This document shows positions 18,351 through 31,862 of a stretch of DNA of 42,334 nt, one piece after another. The position numbers were made by a program, and so were the translations under genes. The notes beneath the pieces are model-generated. The model did no database searches. It saw nothing but the letters and a program-made list of their open reading frames with translations, and was not told the origin of the DNA. Position 1 is the stretch's first letter. The number at the start of each line of letters is the position of its first letter. Source of the stretch: an uncultured bacterium (GTDB lineage Bacteria > Hydrogenedentota > Hydrogenedentia > Hydrogenedentales > CAILVY01); the NCBI GenBank assembly GCA_937951485.1, contig CALEDJ010000047.1, positions 1-42,334 of the forward strand. Reading direction: 5' to 3'.

Positions 18351-20567
18351 CTACGCGCTGCGGGCGCGCAGCCACTGCTCGGCGGTCAGATAGCGCTTGG
18401 GTCGGCCGCGATCGAAAGTGCGGTGCTCGGTATCGAAGCGCGCAACAATGGTCAGGGCATCGTCGCCGGCCTGAATGGACCGGCGCAGGCGCGGGCCGCC
18501 CGCGAGCGTGTCGAAGTGTTTCTCCCACTGCAGTTCACCGGGGTGTTCTCGCTGCACGGCGCAGAGGATGGCGATGGCGGTGGTGAAGGCGCGGACCTGC
18601 TCCGGTTGCTCCACATGGATGCGCAGCCCGTGGCAGGGCAAGTCTTTGTAGCGCGGGCTGGTCGCCTTGCCGGGGATGGCGCGCGGCGTATAGGTCACTG
18701 CTTCCAGTCGGCATCCGGGGTGTTCTTCACTGCCGAGCATGTCCAATATTCGTTCGGCACGAAGCCAGGGCGCGCCGACAATCAGGAACGGCGTGTCTGT
18801 GCCGCGTCCTTCGTTCATGTTCACGCCTTCGAAGAGACAGGTACCCGCATAGACCAACGCGGTTTCCGGCGTGGGGATGTTGGGCGAGGGCGGCGTCCAC
18901 GGCAGCGAGCAGTCCATGAAGAGCCGGTCGCGGAACCAATTGTCCGCCTGGACGATGGTGAGGTTTAAATGCGTTTTGTTGAAAACCGTCTGACGGAAGA
19001 AGAGGGCGATTTCGCCGAGGGTCATGGCGTGCCGCGCGGGAATCGGTGCGCAACACACAATGGAACCGGTCTCCCGGGCGATGCCGCCTTCCATAATCAC
19101 GCCGCCGATGGGGTTGGGCCGGTCCAGGACCATCACCGGTACGCGCGCTTGCGCGCATGCTGTCATGCATTCTTTCATGGTGGCCATATAGGTGTAGTAT
19201 CTCGACCCGATGTCCGGCAGGTCCACGACAAAAAGGTCCACACCGCGCAGTTGTTCCTGCGACGGGCGTTGCTGACCGCCGTAGAGACTGATCACGGGGA
19301 TGGGTCCTGCCTGGGCCTGCACCTTCTCGCCTGCCTCGGCCTGCGCCCACAGCCCGTGCTCCGGGCTGTATAGCCGCGTCAGCGCGATATCCGGACAAAG
19401 CGCGATCACGTCGAGGATGGAACGGCCCGTCTGGTCCGTTGCGGCGTGATTGGCGAGCAGCGCGATGCGCTTGCCGCGCAGCGGCGCGAAGTCGTCCCAC
19501 ATCACGCGGTCGAGACCGGTGTGCGTGTTGATGCGCCTGGGATAGAGGCGGGCGGCGACCGGCGCGTGGAACACACGCCGCAGTGCGCCGTTGTTGCGCG
19601 CGGCCCGCGACGGATGGCAGGTGTTGCTGAGGAGAATGACGAAATTCCCCGCGTCGTAATCGAGCCACAGGCTGGTTCCGGTCCATCCGGTATGGCCGAT
19701 GACCGTGCGCGCGGGCAGAAACCCTGAACTGCCTGCCATCCACGGGTCCAGTTGCCAGCCAAGCCCCTGCCACGGATAACACGGCAACTGGCCAATACGC
19801 GCCATTTCCTCGAGGGTTCGGCGCGCGAGGATGCGCCCCTCTATCAGGGCGCGGCAGAAACGCGCCAGGTCTTCCGCCGTGCCGAACAGGCCCGCGTGGC
19901 CGGAGACCCCGCCGACGGCGTAGGCATTCTCGTCATGAACTTCGCCGCAGATGACGCGGCCGCGCCAAGGGCAATGCTCCGTGGCGGCGCACATCTCGCG
20001 CCACGCCTCCGGGGGACGGAAGCCGGTGTGGGTCATGCCGAGCGGCGCAAAGATGCGCCGCGCACAAAAAGCGTCGAGGGAATCCATTGCGGCGAGTTCC
20101 ACCACCTTGCCCAGAATGATGTAGCCGAGATCGGAATAGCGGCGACGGCTGCCCGGCGCCCACAGGAGCGGCGCCGCCGCGATCCGTTGCAGCGCCTCGT
20201 TGACAGTGCTCACGCTGCGGTAGAGCGGGAGGATGGCGGACAGACCGGCACTGTGCGTGAGCAGATGGCGTATGGTGAACGCGCGGAAGGCCGGCACCGG
20301 CACGATTTCCGCCACGGGTTGATCGAGGTCCAATACGCCGTCATCGCGCAGCAGCATGACGGCGGTGGTGGTCGCCACGACCTTGGTGATCGAGGCCAGA
20401 TCGTAAATCGTGTCTCTCGCCGCCGGCAACGGCTGCGGGACTGACTGGCGCAACCCCGCCGCCCCGTGATAAAGCACGACATCGTTCGCGGCGACATATG
20501 CCGCCGCACCCGGCGCCTTTGCCGCCCGCACCGCGCCCTCCAGCGCATGCTGCCATTCCTGGATCAT
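18351..20567 (-). CDS. Fused AmiE-like serine hydrolase and NamZ-like (DUF1343) exo-muramidase
   Basis: 738 residues with two full domains. Residues 1-345 are a class-C beta-lactamase-fold hydrolase: Ser59-x-x-Lys62 (SITK), Tyr144 in YSDLGY (Asp where Asn is usual), and His292-Thr-Gly replacing KTG. The stretch HDENAYAVGGVSGHAGLFGTA is typical of the B. subtilis YbbE/AmiE group. Residues 350-738 match DUF1343/NamZ (YbbC): LYSPEHGLWAQAEAG, DLPDIGSRYYTY, LDRPNPIGG, PSPNIPTPETALVYAGT and EGVNMNEGRGTDTPF. In B. subtilis the two enzymes are separate neighbours that recycle muropeptides (peptide release and MurNAc trimming). No signal peptide is seen, so it may act in the cytoplasm on imported fragments. 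The start has no clear ribosome site. Confidence 0.88.
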   Translation of the reverse strand: MIQEWQHALEGAVRAAKAPGAAAYVAANDVVLYHGAAGLRQSVPQPLPAARDTIYDLASITKVVATTTAVMLLRDDGVLDLDQPVAEIVPVPAFRAFTIRHLLTHSAGLSAILPLYRSVSTVNEALQRIAAAPLLWAPGSRRRYSDLGYIILGKVVELAAMDSLDAFCARRIFAPLGMTHTGFRPPEAWREMCAATEHCPWRGRVICGEVHDENAYAVGGVSGHAGLFGTAEDLARFCRALIEGRILARRTLEEMARIGQLPCYPWQGLGWQLDPWMAGSSGFLPARTVIGHTGWTGTSLWLDYDAGNFVILLSNTCHPSRAARNNGALRRVFHAPVAARLYPRRINTHTGLDRVMWDDFAPLRGKRIALLANHAATDQTGRSILDVIALCPDIALTRLYSPEHGLWAQAEAGEKVQAQAGPIPVISLYGGQQRPSQEQLRGVDLFVVDLPDIGSRYYTYMATMKECMTACAQARVPVMVLDRPNPIGGVIMEGGIARETGSIVCCAPIPARHAMTLGEIALFFRQTVFNKTHLNLTIVQADNWFRDRLFMDCSLPWTPPSPNIPTPETALVYAGTCLFEGVNMNEGRGTDTPFLIVGAPWLRAERILDMLGSEEHPGCRLEAVTYTPRAIPGKATSPRYKDLPCHGLRIHVEQPEQVRAFTTAIAILCAVQREHPGELQWEKHFDTLAGGPRLRRSIQAGDDALTIVARFDTEHRTFDRGRPKRYLTAEQWLRARSA

Positions 20568-21802: not shown

Positions 21803-21944
21803 CAGGCGTGATCGAGTGGCGCATGGCGCCTGAAGGCGGGTAACATAGTGCATCATGAACCGATCGTTGTCGGCTGTGCGTGCACAACGGCAACTCCTCG
21901 ACGCCGGCAAACGGGAGATGACATCGGATAGGAAGGCGTGCATT

Positions 21945-23081
21945 GTGGACGACAGAAAATCCGTGACAGACCAGGAGGAGAACGGATACCGCGGCTTTGA
22001 ACAAGGCCCGATCCGCCCGCCGAGCGAGGCGCAGAGTCTGTTGATCCGCGTCACGCGGAACTGTCCCTGGAACCGCTGCGCGTTCTGCCCGGTGTACAAG
22101 GGCGCGTCGTTCTCCATTCGCCCCCCGGAGCATGTCAAACGCGACATTGACGCGGTGCACCGGTGCCTGGCGCTGCTGGAAGCGGGCGGCGACATTGCGG
22201 CTGGACCCGCGGACATGGAGGCGCTTCGGGCCGCGGCGCACTGGCGGGCAATGGGGATGCGTTCGGTGTTTCTGCAGGACGCCAACTCGCTGCTGGTAAA
22301 ACCGCGCGATCTTGCGGGGATTCTTCGCCATCTCCGCGAACGTTTCCCGTTCGTGCGCCGCGTCACGTCCTATGCCCGGTCGCACACCCTGGCGGTGCGG
22401 CGGGAAGAAGACCTGCATATGCTGCGGGCGGCGGGGCTGGACCGCGTGCATATCGGCCTGGAATCCGGGTCCGACGCCGTGCTGGCGCGGGTCGCCAAAG
22501 GATGCACCAAAGCGCAGCACATCCTTGCGGGACAAAAAGCGCGCGCCGCAGGTTTCGAGGTATCGGAATATTACATGCCGGGGCTGGGCGGACAGGACCT
22601 CTCGCGGGATCACGCCGTCGAGTCCGCCGATGCGCTCAATCAAATCAACCCGCATTTCATTCGACTGCGCACGCTGGCCATCCCGAACCACACCCCGCTT
22701 TTTGCCGAATGGTCCTCAGGCCGCTTCCAGAAATGCACCGACCGCATGGTCGCCGAAGAAATCCTCCTCTTCCTGGAACACCTCCAGGGCATCACCAGCG
22801 TGGTGAAAAGCGATCACATCCTCAACCTCTTCGGCGAACTGGAAGGCAGACTGCCGGAGGACAAGCCCAAAATGATCGCGTTGGTCCGGCGGTTCCTTGA
22901 TATGACGCCGGAGGACCAGATGTTGTATCAGGCCGGGCGCAGAATGGGGGTCTTCTCCCGCCTCGACGACCTGAACGACCCGCGCAAGCGCGCATTCGCT
23001 GCAGCAACCTGCCGCAGGATCGGCATCACTCCCGACAACATTGACGAAATGATTGACGAGGTGATGAAACAATTCATCTGA
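21945..23081 (+). CDS. Radical SAM protein with CX4CX2C cluster motif
   Basis: 378 residues from a GTG at 21945, chosen because AGGAAGG stands eight bases upstream; an ATG at 21855 would add 30 residues but has no ribosome site. The conserved part starts GYRGFEQGPIRPPSEAQSLL. The cluster motif is CPWNRCAFC (Cys40, Cys45, Cys48 from the GTG), spaced CX4CX2C instead of the classical CX3CX2C. Radical-SAM-core strands follow: SVFLQDANSLL (the GGE-like region), VRRVTSYARSHTL, and LDRVHIGLESGSDAVLARVAKG, typical of the fold. The C-terminal 90 residues are helical with no extra cluster cysteines. I recognise the general family but not the reaction; no substrate genes adjoin it. Confidence 0.85.
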   Translation: MDDRKSVTDQEENGYRGFEQGPIRPPSEAQSLLIRVTRNCPWNRCAFCPVYKGASFSIRPPEHVKRDIDAVHRCLALLEAGGDIAAGPADMEALRAAAHWRAMGMRSVFLQDANSLLVKPRDLAGILRHLRERFPFVRRVTSYARSHTLAVRREEDLHMLRAAGLDRVHIGLESGSDAVLARVAKGCTKAQHILAGQKARAAGFEVSEYYMPGLGGQDLSRDHAVESADALNQINPHFIRLRTLAIPNHTPLFAEWSSGRFQKCTDRMVAEEILLFLEHLQGITSVVKSDHILNLFGELEGRLPEDKPKMIALVRRFLDMTPEDQMLYQAGRRMGVFSRLDDLNDPRKRAFAAATCRRIGITPDNIDEMIDEVMKQFI

Positions 23082-23594
23082 TTCAGCAACATTTTGGCCA
23101 GCGGGCGCAACCTTTTGAATCAACACACATAACATTCTCTTTTCGTCATTGCCAGCCCCTCACCTCCTTCGGCGGCGATTCGCAGAAAAAAGGAAGCACC
23201 CTTTTCTGGCAATACAGCAACTTGAATTTGCCCGTCAACCCTGAATCCTCGTCATCGAGCGAAGCAAAGCCATCTCGACAAGACTGAATGCGATCGCCTG
23301 TTCCAGATTGTTTCACTGCGTTCGCAATGAGGGGGTCATGGATGTGTGTGCCATCGTCATTTTTTGTGGTGGATTCCGCTGCGTTTCACCCACCCTGCAC
23401 AACCGGGGCTATCACCCCCTATCGCAACGCCCCAACGGAGCGCGCAATCCCAGCCCATCGCGGCCTTTCAGGCCGCACACACCTGCTGTCATCCCAGCGG
23501 GTTGAGCCGCCGATATGATATGCGCTTGCCTGATGCGGCGGGGATTGATAGGCTGAAGGGCGTACAATCGCGACAGAATAGGGAGACCAAAATC
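23082..23594. other. Intergenic region, 513 bases, with a dispersed-type repeat
   Basis: It lies between the radical SAM gene and the secreted propeller protein, both plus. A possible upstream extension of the latter gene (from 23346) reads as low-complexity repeat translation with no ribosome site and is rejected. An imperfect palindromic repeat fills 23249-23332. A GGCGGCTTTC-type small palindrome GGCCTTTCAGGCC is near 23463. No RNA gene was recognised. Confidence 0.45.
23249..23332. repeat. Imperfect palindromic repeat of the CGTCATTGCGAG type
   Basis: The left arm TCGTCATCGAGCGAAGC and the right arm ending GCGTTCGCAATGA are roughly complementary, and inner parts CATCTCG and CAGATTG also correspond. 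The wording strongly resembles widely dispersed bacterial intergenic repeats that read CGTCATTGCGAGCGAAGCGAAGCAATCTC. Arms have diverged, suggesting an old copy. Confidence 0.5.
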
Positions 23595-25955
23595 ATGTAT
23601 TCGCCGAAAAACCTTCCGATGATGTTCTTTCTGGCTGCGTTGACCTTTGCCGGCGGAGTGGCGGGCGCCGAGGCCGCCCGCGACCCTTATCTCCACGCAC
23701 CAACCGACAGGATGTGGCGTCCAGTGGCGGATGATGTCTATCTGCAGGAGGCGGGGCGGAAAATTCCCACGGACGGCCCGGTGGTCTCCGTAGCGGTCCG
23801 CGATGGCATGCTCCACGCCGTAGTGCATGGGCGCGTGTTTGTCTTGGAAAACACCGCGCTGACCCCCGTCCCCAACGCGCCTTCGGCCGTCCGGCGCGTG
23901 CAAACGCCTGACGGCACGCTGTGGGCGCTGAGCGATAACGGTCTGTATCGCATGGAATCGGATCAATGGGTGCGTATGGATGATCGCGTCTATGTGGATT
24001 TGACCATGCACCGGGGCGTGGTGCACGGCGCAACGAAGGACAACGTGTATCGGTATGAGAATGGGGTGATGGTCTGCATCGAACCCGAAGGGGGCTATCT
24101 CACCACGGACATTACCTACATTATGGAAGACGGTACACAACTGTTGCCGCAACCGGTGCGTTTTGGACCGCTGCAGCGCATCGCCTCATACAGCGAAACG
24201 CTCTATGGCCTGCGCCCCGGCGAATTGGTCCTGTTCGACGGCAAAGCGATTGACCGTGAGTTCATTGACTGGGGCGTGCTGCCTTCCCCGGAGACCCGCG
24301 ATATGCTGCGTATCGGCAGCCGGCTGTACATCGCCACCGCACGCGGCGTCGCGGTGCTGCGCGGTGCTGCGTTGACCGCGTTGCAGGGCAAGGACGGCCT
24401 GCCCTATGAAGATGCGACCTGCCTCGCGCGGGGTTTCGAGGACGAACTCTGGATCGGCACGACGCGCGGCGCCATCCGCCAAGTCGGCGATCAATACCAC
24501 TATTTTGGGGCGTATCACTGGTTGCCCGCCGACCGCGTACATGACATCGTCGCGGGCGACAGCGTAGTCTATATCGCCACCGACGGCGGTCTCGCAATCA
24601 TCGAGTACCAGCCGTTCACGTTGCAGAAAAAGGCCGCGTATTACGAACGTCACCTGGAGGAATGGGGGCACAAGCGCCTGGGGTTTACGCATAAACTGTA
24701 TTGGGCGGACGATGAACTCGGCTGGGTGCGCGAAATCAGCGACAACGACGGCGGATACACCGCACATTATCTCGCGGCCATGTGCTACAAGTATGCCGTC
24801 ACAGGCGACGAGGCGGCCCGCCGCGAGGCGCTCGACGCCTTCGAAGCGATGGTCTGGCTGGAGGAAATCACGCCGATTCGCGGTTTCCCCGCCCGCGCCA
24901 TCTGGTCGGTCGTGGCGGACAAGGGCCACAAATCCGAACATGGTTCCGGCGGACTGCCTGCGAAGTGGTATCCCACGCCCGACGGCTTGTGGGAGTGGAA
25001 AGGTGACACCTCGAGCGACGAGGTGAACGCGCACTTCTACGCCGTGTCGCTCTTTCACGACCTCGCGGCGCGCGGCCCTGAAAAAGACCGCGCCAGGGAA
25101 CACATCACCCGCATCACCGACCACATCATCGAGAACGGCTGGAAGTTGCGCGACGCCGACGGCCGGCCGACCCGCTGGGGGCGCTGGGACCCGGAATATC
25201 TGCTTCGCCCCTATGGCATGTATGCGCGCGGACTTAACGGCATGGAAGCACAGACCTACGCCATCACCGCCCTCGGCCTCTCCGGCGACAGCCGCTATGC
25301 GGACGCCCTGCAACAACTGCTCGACTGGGGCTACCACCACTACACCGTCCGCCAGAAGATCGTCTTTCCGCCAGGCGATGTCGTGCCGTGGGACGATCGC
25401 CTCGCCTTTATGTGCTACTTCCCGCTTTTCCGCTATTGTCGCGCATTCCCCAACCCGGACCTCCACGCCATCTATATGCGCAGCCTTGAACGCAGTTGGG
25501 AAGTCAAGCGCATGCAGCAGGTCCCCTGGTATAACTTCATCTATGGCATCGTCACCGGAAACGACTGCGAAGTCGCGCAGGCCGTGGCGCATTTGCGGGA
25601 ATGGCCGCTTGACCTGGTCAGCCACAGTTACACGAATTCACATCGGCTTGACCTGGGTCCGCAGCCCGGCTACGTTCCGTATGGCGGCGGCACCCGCGCC
25701 ATGTCGCCCCGTGAAACGGAGGCCAAGCGCTCCAGCCGCTCCGCGCTGCCCTATGACGGCGGCAGCGGCGGACGGGCGGTGACCGAGCCGACCGGCTGGC
25801 TGGAAGACTATTGGATGGGCAGGTACTATGGGTTCATCGAAGCCCCCACCGCGACCGACCCAAAACTGATTACGGTGTCCCGCCGTTTGCGCGAACATCT
25901 CGGCGCCGCGCCCTATGACGGGCCGCCCCGGCCGCCCATACTTGGGGGCAGGTGA
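23595..25955 (+). CDS. Secreted protein: beta-propeller plus helical (alpha/alpha-barrel-like) domain
   Basis: 786 residues; the ATG at 23595 follows GGGAG at nine bases. A Sec signal peptide is visible (MFFLAALTFAGGVAGAEA). Residues about 50-345 repeat short blades such as LWALSDNGLYRM, LYGLRPGELVLFDG, LYIATARGVAVL, LWIGTTRGAIRQ and VYIATDGGLAII, the style of two-component-regulator-type propellers. Residues about 355-760 are rich in paired helices (HYLAAMCYKYAVTGDEAARREALDAF, shown here only in part) with aromatic and acidic residues, like the six-hairpin barrels of glycan-active enzymes. No catalytic motif was recognised, so the function is open; a periplasmic or surface carbohydrate role is inference. 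It appears monocistronic. Confidence 0.75.
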   Translation: MYSPKNLPMMFFLAALTFAGGVAGAEAARDPYLHAPTDRMWRPVADDVYLQEAGRKIPTDGPVVSVAVRDGMLHAVVHGRVFVLENTALTPVPNAPSAVRRVQTPDGTLWALSDNGLYRMESDQWVRMDDRVYVDLTMHRGVVHGATKDNVYRYENGVMVCIEPEGGYLTTDITYIMEDGTQLLPQPVRFGPLQRIASYSETLYGLRPGELVLFDGKAIDREFIDWGVLPSPETRDMLRIGSRLYIATARGVAVLRGAALTALQGKDGLPYEDATCLARGFEDELWIGTTRGAIRQVGDQYHYFGAYHWLPADRVHDIVAGDSVVYIATDGGLAIIEYQPFTLQKKAAYYERHLEEWGHKRLGFTHKLYWADDELGWVREISDNDGGYTAHYLAAMCYKYAVTGDEAARREALDAFEAMVWLEEITPIRGFPARAIWSVVADKGHKSEHGSGGLPAKWYPTPDGLWEWKGDTSSDEVNAHFYAVSLFHDLAARGPEKDRAREHITRITDHIIENGWKLRDADGRPTRWGRWDPEYLLRPYGMYARGLNGMEAQTYAITALGLSGDSRYADALQQLLDWGYHHYTVRQKIVFPPGDVVPWDDRLAFMCYFPLFRYCRAFPNPDLHAIYMRSLERSWEVKRMQQVPWYNFIYGIVTGNDCEVAQAVAHLREWPLDLVSHSYTNSHRLDLGPQPGYVPYGGGTRAMSPRETEAKRSSRSALPYDGGSGGRAVTEPTGWLEDYWMGRYYGFIEAPTATDPKLITVSRRLREHLGAAPYDGPPRPPILGGR

Positions 25956-26085: not shown

Positions 26086-27177
26086 TTATTCGATAGCCGC
26101 CCCTTTTCTGCGCATTTCCTCGGCAATCACGATCATGATGGTGGACAGGATTTTGTCGTGTTTGTTCAGCACATCCACAAAAGTCTTCAAACAAAGCGCC
26201 GCTTCGGACCGCTCGCCAAACCGAAATAACTCAGGCTCTTTTTCAGGCAACTCTTCGACGCCCAACAAGTAGCGCAGCACATATTTGTTGCACTGCATCG
26301 CTTTTTTGAGCGCATTGCGCACTCCGGCTTTGTTATTGGCCAGGATTCTCTCGAAGACGCGCCCCCACATGAATATGGCCGAGAAGTCTTCCTTGTATTC
26401 CTTCATCAACCTGCGCGCCGAGGCGCAGTCGCCGACATAGAGATACAGGGCCAGCAGGTCGTTGCGGATACCCTGGTTGTCGCGCGGATTCAGTTGCAGC
26501 ATGGCCTCGGCTTCGACAATGGCTTCCTCGAAGCGTTCGTCCTGCATGATTACCCTGAAGAGGCTGTTGCGCAGACGCATGTAGGGACGGGTGAAAACGT
26601 TGCTCCAGAAATGCCCTTTGTTTTCTTCCATGAAGGCTTCGCCGAAGCGCGCATCGGCGGCGGCCCTGGCCGCCCGAAGGCGTTCAATCACCTCCTCGAC
26701 GGACTTGGAGTCCCGGAACGCCATCCACACATTGGCATCAGGATTGACGGGATCCAGCGCGTGCGCCTGCGCCACCAACCGGTCGGATTCCTTCCCAGGC
26801 TTCATCACCATGGCCTGAAACATCAACTCCTGGGCTTCTTCAATATCGTCCCAGCCGTCCGCCTTGCTTGCCTCTACGATCTCGTCCGCCTGTTTTCCTG
26901 AAAACAGTTTACCCAGCACCTCGTTGACTTCTTCGATGGACTCCGTCGTATTGCGCTTGAAGTATCGTCCGGCGGCCCGGTTGATCCTTTCCATGTCAAA
27001 ACCGCGCCGAAAATATTCCTCCAGCGAAAACTCCGGCGGCGTTCCATCCAAGTCCGCGTCGTATCCGTCAAAGGAATTGTCATCCTCGCCCGGATTCTCA
27101 TCCGGCGCCTTCCAGGATTGCGAGCGGCCGGCGCCGGCATCGTGGCGCATTTTTCTCTTTCGCGATTTTCGTCCCAT
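26086..27177 (-). CDS. TPR-like protein resembling the ST7 family
   Basis: 363 residues from the ATG at 27177 (GGATT upstream); a longer reading from 27246 adds 23 residues without a ribosome site. The N-terminus is very basic (MGRKSRKRKMRHDA) and then acidic (PGEDDNSFDGYDADLDG). The middle and C-terminal parts are helical repeats, with MLQLNPRDNQGIRNDLLALY and ASARRLMKEYKEDFSAIFMWGRV around residues 225-275, a pattern shared with bacterial relatives of eukaryotic ST7. No catalytic residues are seen; a protein-interaction scaffold is likely. It lies 70 bases downstream of the response regulator on the same strand, so the two are probably co-transcribed, and a strong terminator follows. Confidence 0.7.
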   Translation of the reverse strand: MGRKSRKRKMRHDAGAGRSQSWKAPDENPGEDDNSFDGYDADLDGTPPEFSLEEYFRRGFDMERINRAAGRYFKRNTTESIEEVNEVLGKLFSGKQADEIVEASKADGWDDIEEAQELMFQAMVMKPGKESDRLVAQAHALDPVNPDANVWMAFRDSKSVEEVIERLRAARAAADARFGEAFMEENKGHFWSNVFTRPYMRLRNSLFRVIMQDERFEEAIVEAEAMLQLNPRDNQGIRNDLLALYLYVGDCASARRLMKEYKEDFSAIFMWGRVFERILANNKAGVRNALKKAMQCNKYVLRYLLGVEELPEKEPELFRFGERSEAALCLKTFVDVLNKHDKILSTIMIVIAEEMRRKGAAIE

Positions 27178-27247
27178 AACGCACAATCCTTTTTCAGTTG
27201 AACATGGGTGCGTGTCGGTCCTGCGCAACGCCTGGCAGCCGGCCATG

Positions 27248-28141
27248 CTATCGTCGTCGATCTATAAACAAACCGGTAGCCCCGGCGGCCACGGCCTTCT
27301 TTCGCAGCCGGGTCAGCGTCTCAAACAGATCCTGGGCAGTGGCTTGCGAGGCGGCTTCGTGAATTACGCCGCAGAACAGGAGGTCCAAGGAAACATCCCT
27401 GGCGCCGGCAGGCGCGCTTTCCAGGGATTGCAGAAATGCGGGTAAATGCCGGTTCCAGAGTTTCAGCACCAGATTGCAGTACTTTTCAACCTGCTGTGCG
27501 TCCAGAACGGCCATGAAATGCCCCCCTCCCATATGGCCGACCGAGAAGAAATTCATGTTCAACTCTTCTCCGCACAGACGCAAGCCGCGCGCCAGATGCC
27601 GGACGGCCTTCTCGCGGGCTTCTGCGCCACAGGCTCTGACAAATTCGTTTAGACGTATCAATTCAATGTAGAGCACGGCGAAATCCCTGTGGAGATTGAT
27701 GATTCGGTGCACTTCAAGTTTGATATGTCGCGGTCCCGGCAGCGAAGTCGCCTCATCCACCATCCGGTTCGGAGCACACAGCGTCAGCAGGTGTTGTACG
27801 CGATTGATCAAAACATCGCGCTGGATCGGTTTGGTCAGAAAATCATCACCGCCCTGCGCCAGCCCATGGGCAATCTCCTCTTCGCCATTCATGGCGGACA
27901 GAAACAGGATTGGCAAGGTATAGAGATTGGCATTGGCATGGATTCTCCGGCAGATTTCAAAGCCGGACATACCGGGGAACATCACATCCAGTATGAGCAG
28001 GTCCATCTGCTCTTTGTCCAGAATGGCCAAGGCCTGTTCGCCATTGGCCGCGACCGTGCAGGCATGACCCGCCGTTTTCAAATAGCCCGCCACTTCGCGG
28101 GCAAACGGCTGATCATCATCCACTATGAGAATCTTTGCCAC
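27248..28141 (-). CDS. Response regulator with degenerate GGDEF-type output domain
   Basis: 297 residues from a GTG at 28141 that directly precedes the receiver fold (AKILIVDDD); an ATG at 28237 adds 32 residues with no ribosome site. The receiver domain (1-120) has the acidic pocket Asp8-Asp9, phosphoacceptor Asp52 (LLILDVMFPG), Ser82 and Lys104 (FLTKP). Residues 130-290 look like a diguanylate-cyclase fold (DEATSLPGPRHIKLEVHRI resembles the D-LTGLPNR start), but the signature GGDEF is GGGHF, so cyclase activity is unlikely; it may bind a nucleotide or act as an adaptor. No partner histidine kinase is nearby. It is followed by the ST7-like protein, a possible output partner. Confidence 0.8.
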   Translation of the reverse strand: MAKILIVDDDQPFAREVAGYLKTAGHACTVAANGEQALAILDKEQMDLLILDVMFPGMSGFEICRRIHANANLYTLPILFLSAMNGEEEIAHGLAQGGDDFLTKPIQRDVLINRVQHLLTLCAPNRMVDEATSLPGPRHIKLEVHRIINLHRDFAVLYIELIRLNEFVRACGAEAREKAVRHLARGLRLCGEELNMNFFSVGHMGGGHFMAVLDAQQVEKYCNLVLKLWNRHLPAFLQSLESAPAGARDVSLDLLFCGVIHEAASQATAQDLFETLTRLRKKAVAAGATGLFIDRRR

Positions 28142-28449
28142 CGATGAAACCCGGTTTTCCCTTGGACCTGCAATTCGATCGCCCCGATTCAGATGTGGCG
28201 TTGCCGCATGACCAAAGCACACCCACCACGCCAACATACCGCACCGATTACACTACATGGAACTTGTCTGTGTGTCAACCGTCAGCGATTCCGGAAATGG
28301 GAACGGGGGCGCTTCCGGTCTGTTGGGCCATCCCTACGAAGACTCCTCTCCGGATGTCATCCATTGGGGCGAATGCGTTATAATCCCCTCCGTCACACCT
28401 GCAAGATGCCTCCACCTGCACAGGCGCCGCCGCAAGGGGGCGTTGGGAG
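28142..28449. other. Divergent intergenic region with a predicted -10 box
   Basis: 308 bases between the response regulator (minus) and htrA (plus). A perfect TATAAT lies at 28379-28384, 66 bases before the htrA start; the best -35 candidate, TGTCAT at 28355-28360, is weak (spacing 18). No gene is seen. Confidence 0.4.
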
Positions 28450-29859
28450 ATGCGGACATTGAATACCGAAAAAAGACAAGTCGTGAGGAACGTTCGGAAG
28501 GCGGCCGCCTGTGCCGCGTTGGCGCTGCTGGCCGTGGCTGCCGCGGGATGCGTCACGGCGGGCGGCGGTTCGGAACGGGCCGTGATCAGGGCCAAGAACC
28601 GCGTGGCGCCCGCACTGGTGCACATCCGCCCGGTGAAAGAGGTCTACGCGCGGGGCAAGCGCGAGGAGGTCGTGGCCATCGGCAGCGGTTTCATCATCTC
28701 ACCGGACGGCTACGTCTGCACAAACGAGCACGTCATCGGCCAAAGCCGCGCCGTGGCCTGCATTCTGAGTGACAGGAACGAAGTGGAGGCCGAGGTGGTG
28801 GGCGTGGACCCCTACACCGATATCGGCGTGCTCAAACTCAAGACGGAACGGCCCCTGCCTTATGTCACGCTGGGCGATTCGGAAAAGATTGAATCCGGGC
28901 AAACGGTCCTTGCCTTGGGCAGCCCGCACGGACTGGCGCGTTCTGTCTCACTGGGCATCATCAGCGTGACCGACCGCCATCTCGACGCCGCAGAAGCGCG
29001 CACATCGCCCTTTAACAACTGGATTCAGACCGACGCGGCGATCAACCCCGGAAACAGCGGCGGGCCATTGGTGAATCTGCGCGGCGAGGTCATCGGCGTC
29101 AACGCCCGCATGCTGCGCGGCGCGGAGAACGTGGGCTTCGCCATCCCGATCAACGTGGCCAAAGAGGTGATTGATGCGATCATCCGCGACGGGCGCGTGC
29201 GCCGCAGTTGGGTCGGCATCTCCCTGCAGGAGATGATGGCGAAGACGGACGACCCGACGCAACGGGGCGTCGTCATCTCCGACATTGACCCGCTATCCCC
29301 CGCTTCCGAAGCGGCGCTGCGCCCCGGCGACGTGCTTGTCGCCGTGAACGGCACGCCGGTGGACGCGCGCTTCCCCGAAGACCTGCCGCCCATCCGCAAA
29401 CGCATCACCGACCTGCCCATCGGCGAGAAAGCCGTCTTCACCGTTCGGCGCGGCGATGAGACATTGGACCTGGAAGTGCTCACGGAAGATGCCGGGGAAT
29501 TTCGCGGCACCGAACGCGAATTCCCTGACTGGGGATTCACAGCGGGCGAACTGACGCTCGATCAGGTGCGCCGCGCGCAGTTGCCCGCGCGCGTGGGGGT
29601 GATCGTGTCGGGCGTGCAGGTGGGCGGCATCGCCGCTTCGGCGCGGCTCGATCAGGGCGACATTATTCTGGAAATGGATAACGAAGCGATTGAAAACCTG
29701 GCGCATTTCACCCGCCTGTACCAGGCCGCAGTGGAAGCGCGGAAAGGCCTCGTGCTCCTGCGGGTGAAACGCGGCGCACTAACCCGCTTCGTCCTGATAA
29801 GACAAGAGAGCACGGCGACGCCGTTGCTTCCGGAGGACACGGACGGTCATGTGGAATAG
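28450..29859 (+). CDS. HtrA/DegP-type serine protease, lipoprotein
   Basis: 469 residues. The signal peptide ends in VAAAGC, with the lipidated Cys at 34. The trypsin-like domain (about 45-260) has an intact triad: His94 in TNEHVIG, Asp124 in YTDIGVLKL and Ser203 in INPGNSGGPLV. Two PDZ-like domains follow, about 265-360 (WVGISLQEM, then PASEAALRPGDVLVAVNG) and 365-460 (GVIVSGVQVGGIAASARLDQGD). HtrA proteins degrade or refold damaged envelope proteins. As a lipoprotein it would be membrane-tethered, differing from soluble DegP. The ATG has GGGGG eight bases upstream; a TTG nine bases in is also possible. It overlaps the next gene by 11 bases, and the pseudoprotease and a small lipoprotein follow. 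Confidence 0.9.
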   Translation: MRTLNTEKRQVVRNVRKAAACAALALLAVAAAGCVTAGGGSERAVIRAKNRVAPALVHIRPVKEVYARGKREEVVAIGSGFIISPDGYVCTNEHVIGQSRAVACILSDRNEVEAEVVGVDPYTDIGVLKLKTERPLPYVTLGDSEKIESGQTVLALGSPHGLARSVSLGIISVTDRHLDAAEARTSPFNNWIQTDAAINPGNSGGPLVNLRGEVIGVNARMLRGAENVGFAIPINVAKEVIDAIIRDGRVRRSWVGISLQEMMAKTDDPTQRGVVISDIDPLSPASEAALRPGDVLVAVNGTPVDARFPEDLPPIRKRITDLPIGEKAVFTVRRGDETLDLEVLTEDAGEFRGTEREFPDWGFTAGELTLDQVRRAQLPARVGVIVSGVQVGGIAASARLDQGDIILEMDNEAIENLAHFTRLYQAAVEARKGLVLLRVKRGALTRFVLIRQESTATPLLPEDTDGHVE

Positions 29860-31228
29860 TCTGCTGCTTCTTTCTGCGGTCCTGACGGCGACCGGCGATT
29901 TCTTCAGCCAGGCGGCGCTGGAACGCGCCTACAATGACCTGACGCCCGCCATCGGGATCGTCCGCTATTCACTTGAGATAACGGACCCCGCCTCCGGCGA
30001 AGTTTCCCGGCGCGACAACAACGCGCTCGGACTGGTGGTCGCGCCGGACGGACTGGTCATGGCGCTGGGCCACATGGTCATTGAGAACACCCAGCCTTTC
30101 AACATCGTCTTCACGCTCGGACACGGCAGCGAAGAACGCCGATTCGACGCCACCCTCCTCAAGAAGCCCGACGACGTCAATGTGGTGTTCCTGCGACTGA
30201 AAAGCGACGCACCGTTGGACCTGCCGTATGTGCGCTTCTCAAAGGCGAACGATCTTGCCCTGGCCGCCCCGGTGGCGCTCTTCGGCAGGCTCGGCGACAC
30301 CCTGGATTTCGTCCATGCCATTCAGGAGGCGCGCATCGCCGCGATTCTTGAAAAGCCGCGCACCACCTACTGCCTCGACCAGAATGTTCGTTTCGGCTAT
30401 GTGGGCGGACCCGTGATTGACACGGCGGGCCGCGTCGTTGGCGTGGTCGGCTTTGATCTCAGCCGCGCCGAGGGTGGCGACGTTTATTCGCGCAGCGGCC
30501 ATCCCTTGCTGTATCAGGCCGAGTTGTTCCAGAAATACATTGACAATCCCCCCAGCCTGACGGAGGAGCAGAGCGCCGAAGATTACGCATGGCTGGGCGT
30601 TTTCACCCAGCCGCTGACGGACGATTTCGCCGAGTATTGGGGGCTGCCGAAGGAAGGCGGACTGATTGTCAGCACCGTGGTCGCGCCGTCGCCCGCCGTG
30701 GACGCCGGACTGCTTCCAGGCGATGTCATCATTGATTTCGACGGCACGCCAATTCGCAGCAAACTCGACAGCGACGTGCTGAGTTTCACCAAACTCGTGC
30801 GCGAGGCCGGGCCGGGACGTGAGGTAACGATCCGCATTCTCCGCGACGGCCAACCCCGGGAGATCCGCGCGCGCCTCGGCGTGCGCCCGCGCACCGCACG
30901 CGACGCCGGCGAATACGAAGACCCCGTCTTCGGCCTCACCGTGCGCGAAATCACGACGGACATCCGCATCGCCCTCAACTTGTCCGAAGACGTGCAGGGC
31001 GTCATCGTCAGGCGCGTGCGTTCCGGCAGCCCCGCCCAACTCGCCAACATGCGCCCCGGCGTCATCATCATGAGTTTCGGCGACTACCCCGTGAGCACCG
31101 TGGACGAATTCCGGGAGGCCGTGGACAAGGTCGTCGCGCGAAAGCCCGCCGAAGTCTCCATCTTCGCCCGCGTCGGCCCGGCCACAGGATTCTTCCGCCT
31201 CGAGCCACGCTGGCAGAACAACCAATGA
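29849..31228 (+). CDS. HtrA-like pseudoprotease with two PDZ domains
   Basis: 459 residues, starting inside the last codons of the upstream HtrA gene (11-base overlap). A short signal peptide is present (MWNSLLLLSAVLTATGDFF). The trypsin-like fold is recognisable: ALGLVVAPDGLVMALGHMVIEN holds His75 and PDDVNVVFLRL holds Asp109, but the expected GNSGGP is GYVGGP, so the nucleophile position is Val185. Two PDZ-like domains follow, with VVAPSPAVDAGLLPGDVIIDF and RVRSGSPAQLANMRPGVIIMSF. Without the serine it should not cleave peptide bonds; it may bind substrates or regulate the active partner encoded just before it. The tight overlap suggests translational coupling and a fixed ratio. Confidence 0.85.
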   Translation: MWNSLLLLSAVLTATGDFFSQAALERAYNDLTPAIGIVRYSLEITDPASGEVSRRDNNALGLVVAPDGLVMALGHMVIENTQPFNIVFTLGHGSEERRFDATLLKKPDDVNVVFLRLKSDAPLDLPYVRFSKANDLALAAPVALFGRLGDTLDFVHAIQEARIAAILEKPRTTYCLDQNVRFGYVGGPVIDTAGRVVGVVGFDLSRAEGGDVYSRSGHPLLYQAELFQKYIDNPPSLTEEQSAEDYAWLGVFTQPLTDDFAEYWGLPKEGGLIVSTVVAPSPAVDAGLLPGDVIIDFDGTPIRSKLDSDVLSFTKLVREAGPGREVTIRILRDGQPREIRARLGVRPRTARDAGEYEDPVFGLTVREITTDIRIALNLSEDVQGVIVRRVRSGSPAQLANMRPGVIIMSFGDYPVSTVDEFREAVDKVVARKPAEVSIFARVGPATGFFRLEPRWQNNQ

Positions 31229-31289
31229 CGGCTCTGTTACATTGCGCAGCGCCTTCGCTGCACGCTGCGTTAACATAGGTCTTGCGGAT

Positions 31290-31862
31290 ATGTCCATCGC
31301 CGACAAGCGTCTGAGTCACATCGCCGGCCTGCTTCTGATAACGTCTTTGTTCTATGCATGCGGACAACGGGACCAGGAATCGCTGCTGGACCGGGCATAC
31401 CAACTGGGCGAACAGTACCGCTGGCGCGAGGCCATGCCGCTGGTCAAGGCGCATCTCATTGCACATCCCGGCGACCCCGCCGGCCATTACTTGCTTGGCC
31501 GCTGTTATCTTCACGACCCAAATCCGTACCTCGTGATGGCCGAGGGCGAATTCCGCACCGCCCTGTACGCTTTCCAGCGCACCCGCAATCACGGCAGGCT
31601 CGCGCGCTACATGAGCGCCGGGGAGTTCGAGGCGGCCATCCATCGCGAACTCGCCCGCACCGACATGCGCCGCGCGCGCGAAGCCATGACCTTGGGCCTG
31701 TCGCCCCGATTGGTCCGGACGCACCTCGAACGCGCCCTGGAGTCGGTGCGTCAGGGGCGCGCCATCGCCCCCGACGATCCGGCGCTCCGCGAAATGGAGG
31801 AAACACTGGAGGCCGGACTGCGCGACCTTTCCGGGCAAGGCCAAGCCCCAAGAGAACCGTAA
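31290..31862 (+). CDS. Small TPR-like lipoprotein
   Basis: 190 residues from the ATG at 31290, chosen because a lipoprotein signal follows directly (HIAGLLLITSLFYAC, Cys24). The mature part has two TPR-like helix pairs (LLDRAYQLGEQYRWREAMPLV and DPAGHYLLGRCYLHDP, each within the first 100 residues) and then Arg/Glu-rich helices. It has no enzymatic motif. It lies 61 bases after the HtrA-like pseudoprotease; a small hairpin (GCAGCG-CCTT-CGCTGC, 31246-31261) sits in that gap. Together the three make a likely envelope quality-control operon; this role is inferred from context. Confidence 0.7.
   Translation: MSIADKRLSHIAGLLLITSLFYACGQRDQESLLDRAYQLGEQYRWREAMPLVKAHLIAHPGDPAGHYLLGRCYLHDPNPYLVMAEGEFRTALYAFQRTRNHGRLARYMSAGEFEAAIHRELARTDMRRAREAMTLGLSPRLVRTHLERALESVRQGRAIAPDDPALREMEETLEAGLRDLSGQGQAPREP

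Follow-up and report, generated by a model that had tools for sequence, protein, structure and literature searches.

Why should a bacterium encode, directly beside an HtrA protease with a complete catalytic triad, a second protein of the same build in which the catalytic serine has been replaced? This question is raised by a locus in a window of 42,334 nucleotides (the whole stretch of DNA analysed, contig CALEDJ010000047.1) from an uncultured member of the Hydrogenedentota. Three genes, here called A, B and C, lie next to each other on the forward strand:

28450..29859, + strand: A, predicted catalytic HtrA lipoprotein, 469 aa; signal peptide, protease domain, PDZ1, PDZ2
29849..29859, + strand: overlap of 11 bases in which A ends and B begins, from the ORF coordinates
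29849..31228, + strand: B, predicted exported HtrA-like pseudoprotease, 459 aa; protease domain, PDZ1, PDZ2
30392..30412, + strand: pseudo-active-site loop FGYVGGP of B, residues 182-188, at the position of GNSGGP in HtrA
31290..31862, + strand: C, predicted small lipoprotein, weakly TPR-like, located 3' of B in most Hydrogenedentota

Gene A carries the lipobox AAGC34 at its signal peptide, and its Pfam domains are Trypsin_2 (116.8 bits) and two PDZ domains. In the orthologue alignment, the catalytic positions are occupied by H94, D124 and S203. Both marks of an HtrA-type serine protease, a triad with the GNSGGP loop and a Trypsin_2 domain followed by PDZ, are therefore present. Among the Hydrogenedentota orthologues, His and Ser are invariant wherever they can be read, and the single exception in the triad is the replacement of Asp by Val at one locus (L009). 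The AlphaFold model of A has a pLDDT of 82.

Gene B has a signal peptide, lacks a lipobox, and matches Trypsin_2 at 47 bits (cutoff 27.6) together with two PDZ domains. Its triad positions hold H75, D109 and V185, the last within GYVGGP. Across 59 aligned Hydrogenedentota orthologues, the Ser position is filled by Val (48), Ile (8) or Leu (3) and never by Ser. Phe or Tyr mostly stands in place of the Asn of GNSGGP, Gly183 and Pro188 do not vary, and the C-terminal tail FRLEPRW is conserved. The intact triad of an HtrA-type serine protease is missing from B in all lineages that bear it and, judged by these residues, B is non-catalytic. The HtrA arrangement of a chymotrypsin-like domain with PDZ is present in B according to both Pfam and structure comparison. 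The best solved-structure matches of the B model (pLDDT 84, pTM 0.52) are H. pylori HtrA, AlgW and DegQ, with Z of about 19-20, and its fold is therefore that of an HtrA.

The residues, the shared protease-PDZ-PDZ build and the 11-base overlap agree with the reading given in an earlier note on this DNA (His94/Asp124/Ser203 in A; His75/Asp109/Val185 in B), as checked against the ORFs, the alignment and the Pfam domains. The suggestion of a conserved catalytic/non-catalytic pair also holds, with Ser absent from every aligned Hydrogenedentota B and kept in A. Neither of the two observations named as speaking against it, relatives retaining Ser in B and a pair that is not conserved, is borne out: in Hydrogenedentota the former count is 0/59, and the pair occurs in the order and in three other phylum-level lineages.

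The selection acting on the two genes is similar. Five pairs of closely related genomes give dN/dS values of 0.10-0.17 (B) and 0.11-0.19 (A), and B evidently evolves under purifying selection. A recent single mutation or a decaying pseudogene is ruled out by these values and by the occurrence of Val, Ile or Leu throughout the order. The distribution of constraint is different. The mean top-residue frequency in B is 0.63 for the protease domain and 0.68 for the PDZs, compared with 0.77 and 0.65, respectively, in A. Constraint in B is shifted from the protease domain to the PDZs, and the reverse is observed in A.

How closely the two genes are held together can be seen from their distribution. 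B is present in 61 of 68 Hydrogenedentota genomes; G018 has the first part of B, at the edge of a contig, and the six genomes without B are each less than 90% complete. A and B adjoin by coordinates in 62 genomes. In a co-occurrence survey of 386 genomes, in which the A subfamily was counted at a profile score above about 430 bits or as a contig-edge or split match, the A subfamily and B occur together in 65 of 66 genomes, and in the remaining one B is cut off by the contig end. About 60 genomes of the order keep the pair, far beyond chance, and B is evidently co-inherited, usually as a neighbor, with one specific catalytic A subfamily. Overlaps of 8-14 bases between A and B are found in 38 of 56 orthologous loci, and this recurrence suggests translational coupling. 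Beyond A-B-C in Hydrogenedentota, the wider neighborhood contains no constant gene that could hint at a substrate; other recurring neighbors are lineage-restricted. A scan of named genomes returned Hydrogenedentota and a few weaker HtrA matches in Geobacter, Geomobilimonas, Desulfuromonadales and Deltaproteobacteria-labelled records.

The A-B pair recurs in three phylum-level lineages besides Hydrogenedentota, four in all, and the A triad is retained in each of the three. In lineage 2 (G141 and relatives), B is found in 32 and A in 31 of 40 genomes, and all eight genomes without B also lack A. One genome (G159, 62% complete) has B with no A detected, and in family f92 the two genes are parted by an intervening gene or found on separate contigs. 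The B proteins of lineage 2 have lost the His throughout, and at their Ser position Ala or another residue is usual; Ser itself is retained there only in L058, L106 and L107. In lineages 3 and 4, the pair occurs in single families (G302/G424 and G278/G431), and B has Ile or Leu at the Ser position, with a one-residue deletion beside it in lineage 4. Outside Hydrogenedentota, B has degenerated along different routes.

In the tree, the B proteins of all four lineages cluster in a single clade and the A proteins all in another (SH-aLRT 100 each), apart from other HtrAs, which points firmly to a single origin for each subunit. Long-branch attraction could inflate the pseudoprotease clade, whose deep branches are long.

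A second, rearranged pair, A2-B2, lies on another contig of the genome from which the window comes (G000; the window is its contig C47):

G000 contig C28:14113-17038 (L204:1518-4548): A2-B2, second predicted catalytic/pseudoprotease HtrA pair; four-PDZ active HtrA and bare pseudoprotease domain

A2 is a long catalytic HtrA (713-aa open frame) with four PDZs, and B2, which follows it, is a stand-alone Trypsin_2 protein without the catalytic His or Ser. The two are adjacent in 45 genomes, the majority Hydrogenedentota and seven outside the order; in G406, an eighth genome outside the order, an A2 fragment precedes B2. For 26 A2 genes no adjacent B2 was found; some of these lie at contig ends, and for some others, in family f10, there is a more distant copy at another place. 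The tree of protease domains joins B2 to B (SH-aLRT 100) and A2 to A (99). In the PDZ tree, PDZ1-2 of A2 group with the PDZs of A, and PDZ3-4 with those of B (98, then 100/99.5). An origin of PDZ3-4 by internal tandem duplication is rejected (p-AU 0.002), and their placement with A is disfavored (p-AU 0.03). Therefore, the domain set of the pair was kept while the gene boundary moved. Such a moved boundary may be read as Rosetta-stone type evidence that the A and B chains work together, and it makes the regulated envelope protease complex suggested earlier a more likely interpretation. A third B2-like pseudoprotease domain is located on another contig of the same genome (C11:115382-116149; L244:4320-5210), where the 8 kb inspected contain no HtrA gene, and similar stand-alone copies are present in G038 and G009.

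HtrA proteases are mainly described as self-sufficient homo-oligomers. This includes DegP and DegQ (Do family, TIGR02037), which have the same protease-PDZ-PDZ architecture as A and B and are usually described as homo-oligomers built from active chains. Against TIGR02037, A scores 330.5 and B 127.7 bits, both under the cutoff of 416.2; on its sequence, A is an HtrA outside the Do-family model. In the open-access literature searched, MamE/MamO was the only bacterial active/pseudo HtrA pair found, and nothing closer was found for hetero-oligomeric or inactive HtrA subunits. This pair from magnetotactic Alphaproteobacteria resembles A/B in combining an active HtrA with an HtrA-derived pseudoprotease that has a degenerate nucleophile loop, and MamO, itself non-catalytic, promotes proteolysis by MamE (PMC4794232). 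B is not a member of the MamO family (19.9 bits against the NCBIfam NF040961 cutoff of 800), and A reaches 168.6 bits against the MamE model (cutoff 800). MamO has a C-terminal TauE-like transporter domain, whereas B ends after PDZ2, with only Trypsin_2 and PDZ recognized by Pfam. Unlike MamE/MamO, A-B spans four phylum-level lineages and is accompanied by a paralogue with rearranged domains. Most likely, A-B resembles MamE/MamO in its working while standing outside that family. Arabidopsis Deg5 and Deg8 are likewise two HtrA paralogues in one compartment, the thylakoid lumen, and Deg5 lacks a PDZ, as does B2. However, each plant protein keeps its catalytic Ser, which was mutated to Ala for crystals (PMC3640471), and the likeness may be one without orthology.

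We propose, with somewhat better than even confidence, that A and B are two kinds of subunit in a single proteolytic system of the cell envelope, with B as the dedicated non-catalytic partner. Lipid-anchored A would do the cutting. Secreted B, with Val, Ile or Leu at the nucleophile position, usually behind Phe or Tyr, would serve A without catalysis. Its two PDZs may bind substrate or signal peptides and then deliver or gate these to A. The protease-fold domain of B would probably dock on A, or enter into mixed oligomers, and switch A on allosterically. We infer the physical contact between A and B, the direction of regulation and the nature of the substrates. Activation of A by B seems more likely than inhibition because the MamO-MamE precedent is one of activation. 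A more general form, an obligate two-subunit HtrA with a built-in pseudoprotease, present in at least four phylum-level lineages with two PDZs per chain and also in a rearranged version with four PDZs on the catalytic chain beside a bare pseudoprotease, is a possibility that we place just short of even.

Only A of the two is a lipoprotein, so they could also work apart. B might be an independent periplasmic holdase or chaperone that lost proteolysis but still binds substrates through its PDZs and the surface of its protease fold; its place in an operon with A would reflect no more than a common role in envelope stress. Chaperone activity is known in the HtrA family, constraint on B falls more on its PDZs, which retain the carboxylate-loop motifs WLGV and FGLTV, and the lipid anchor of A is missing from B. 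We nevertheless consider this unlikely: co-inheritance is nearly complete with one specific A subfamily and not with any HtrA, and the second pair, in which the catalytic chain bears B-type PDZs, likewise speaks for one common complex.

It is also conceivable that the pseudo-active site of B has been repurposed for a ligand or metal, as in MamO, with ligand sensing as its main role. Several residues remain conserved in the Hydrogenedentota B proteins despite the lost catalysis (H75 53/59, D109 58/59, N111 and R171 59/59, H218 51/59). However, H75 is Phe or Tyr in six of these and is lost throughout lineage 2, and the site of the metal-binding His148 of MamO, beside the Asp, is variable in B (D40/E9/K3/G2 and others). 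No conserved di-His pair equivalent to H148/H263 of MamO was seen in the 59 sequences, and we regard this role as quite improbable. Pseudoenzymes often inhibit, and adjacency and co-inheritance would fit equally well with B as an inhibitor or decoy, a pseudo-substrate or substrate competitor that keeps A off until stress displaces it. The known HtrA precedent, MamO acting on MamE, is activation, and B-type PDZs on a catalytic chain fit assistance better, which makes an inhibitory B very improbable. The pair is widespread, old and co-inherited, and its paralogue carries the same set of domains, divided between the two genes at a different point. The idea of a pseudoprotease as a protease subunit is directly testable with two small soluble proteins.

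The third gene, C, described in the earlier note as a TPR-like lipoprotein, is the weaker part of that reading. The gene exists, and a lipobox-like Cys after the signal peptide, found in 45 of the 49 orthologues and as FYAC in the copy of the window, predicts a lipoprotein. The TPR scores are below the Pfam cutoffs (TPR_19 20.3 against 25 bits; TPR_14 18.3 against 23.5). The start listed for C, TTG 31242, probably lies too far upstream; ATG 31290, directly 5' of the signal peptide MSIADKRLSHIAGLLLITSLFYAC, is the likelier one. C was not found in Hydrogenedentota family f7 or in the three other A-B lineages; A-B is therefore the core, with C as an accessory seen in Hydrogenedentota alone.

Elsewhere in the window, upstream of the pair, a 386-aa protein without a Pfam match (26086-27246, - strand) adjoins a response regulator (27248-28237, - strand). 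An 869-aa ORF (23346-25955, + strand), with no Pfam match at E 0.001, lies downstream of a radical SAM protein (21855-23081). A single ORF at 18354-20567 (- strand) combines a beta-lactamase-like domain with the exo-muramidase NamZ (Pfam Beta-lactamase, NamZ_N and NamZ_C).
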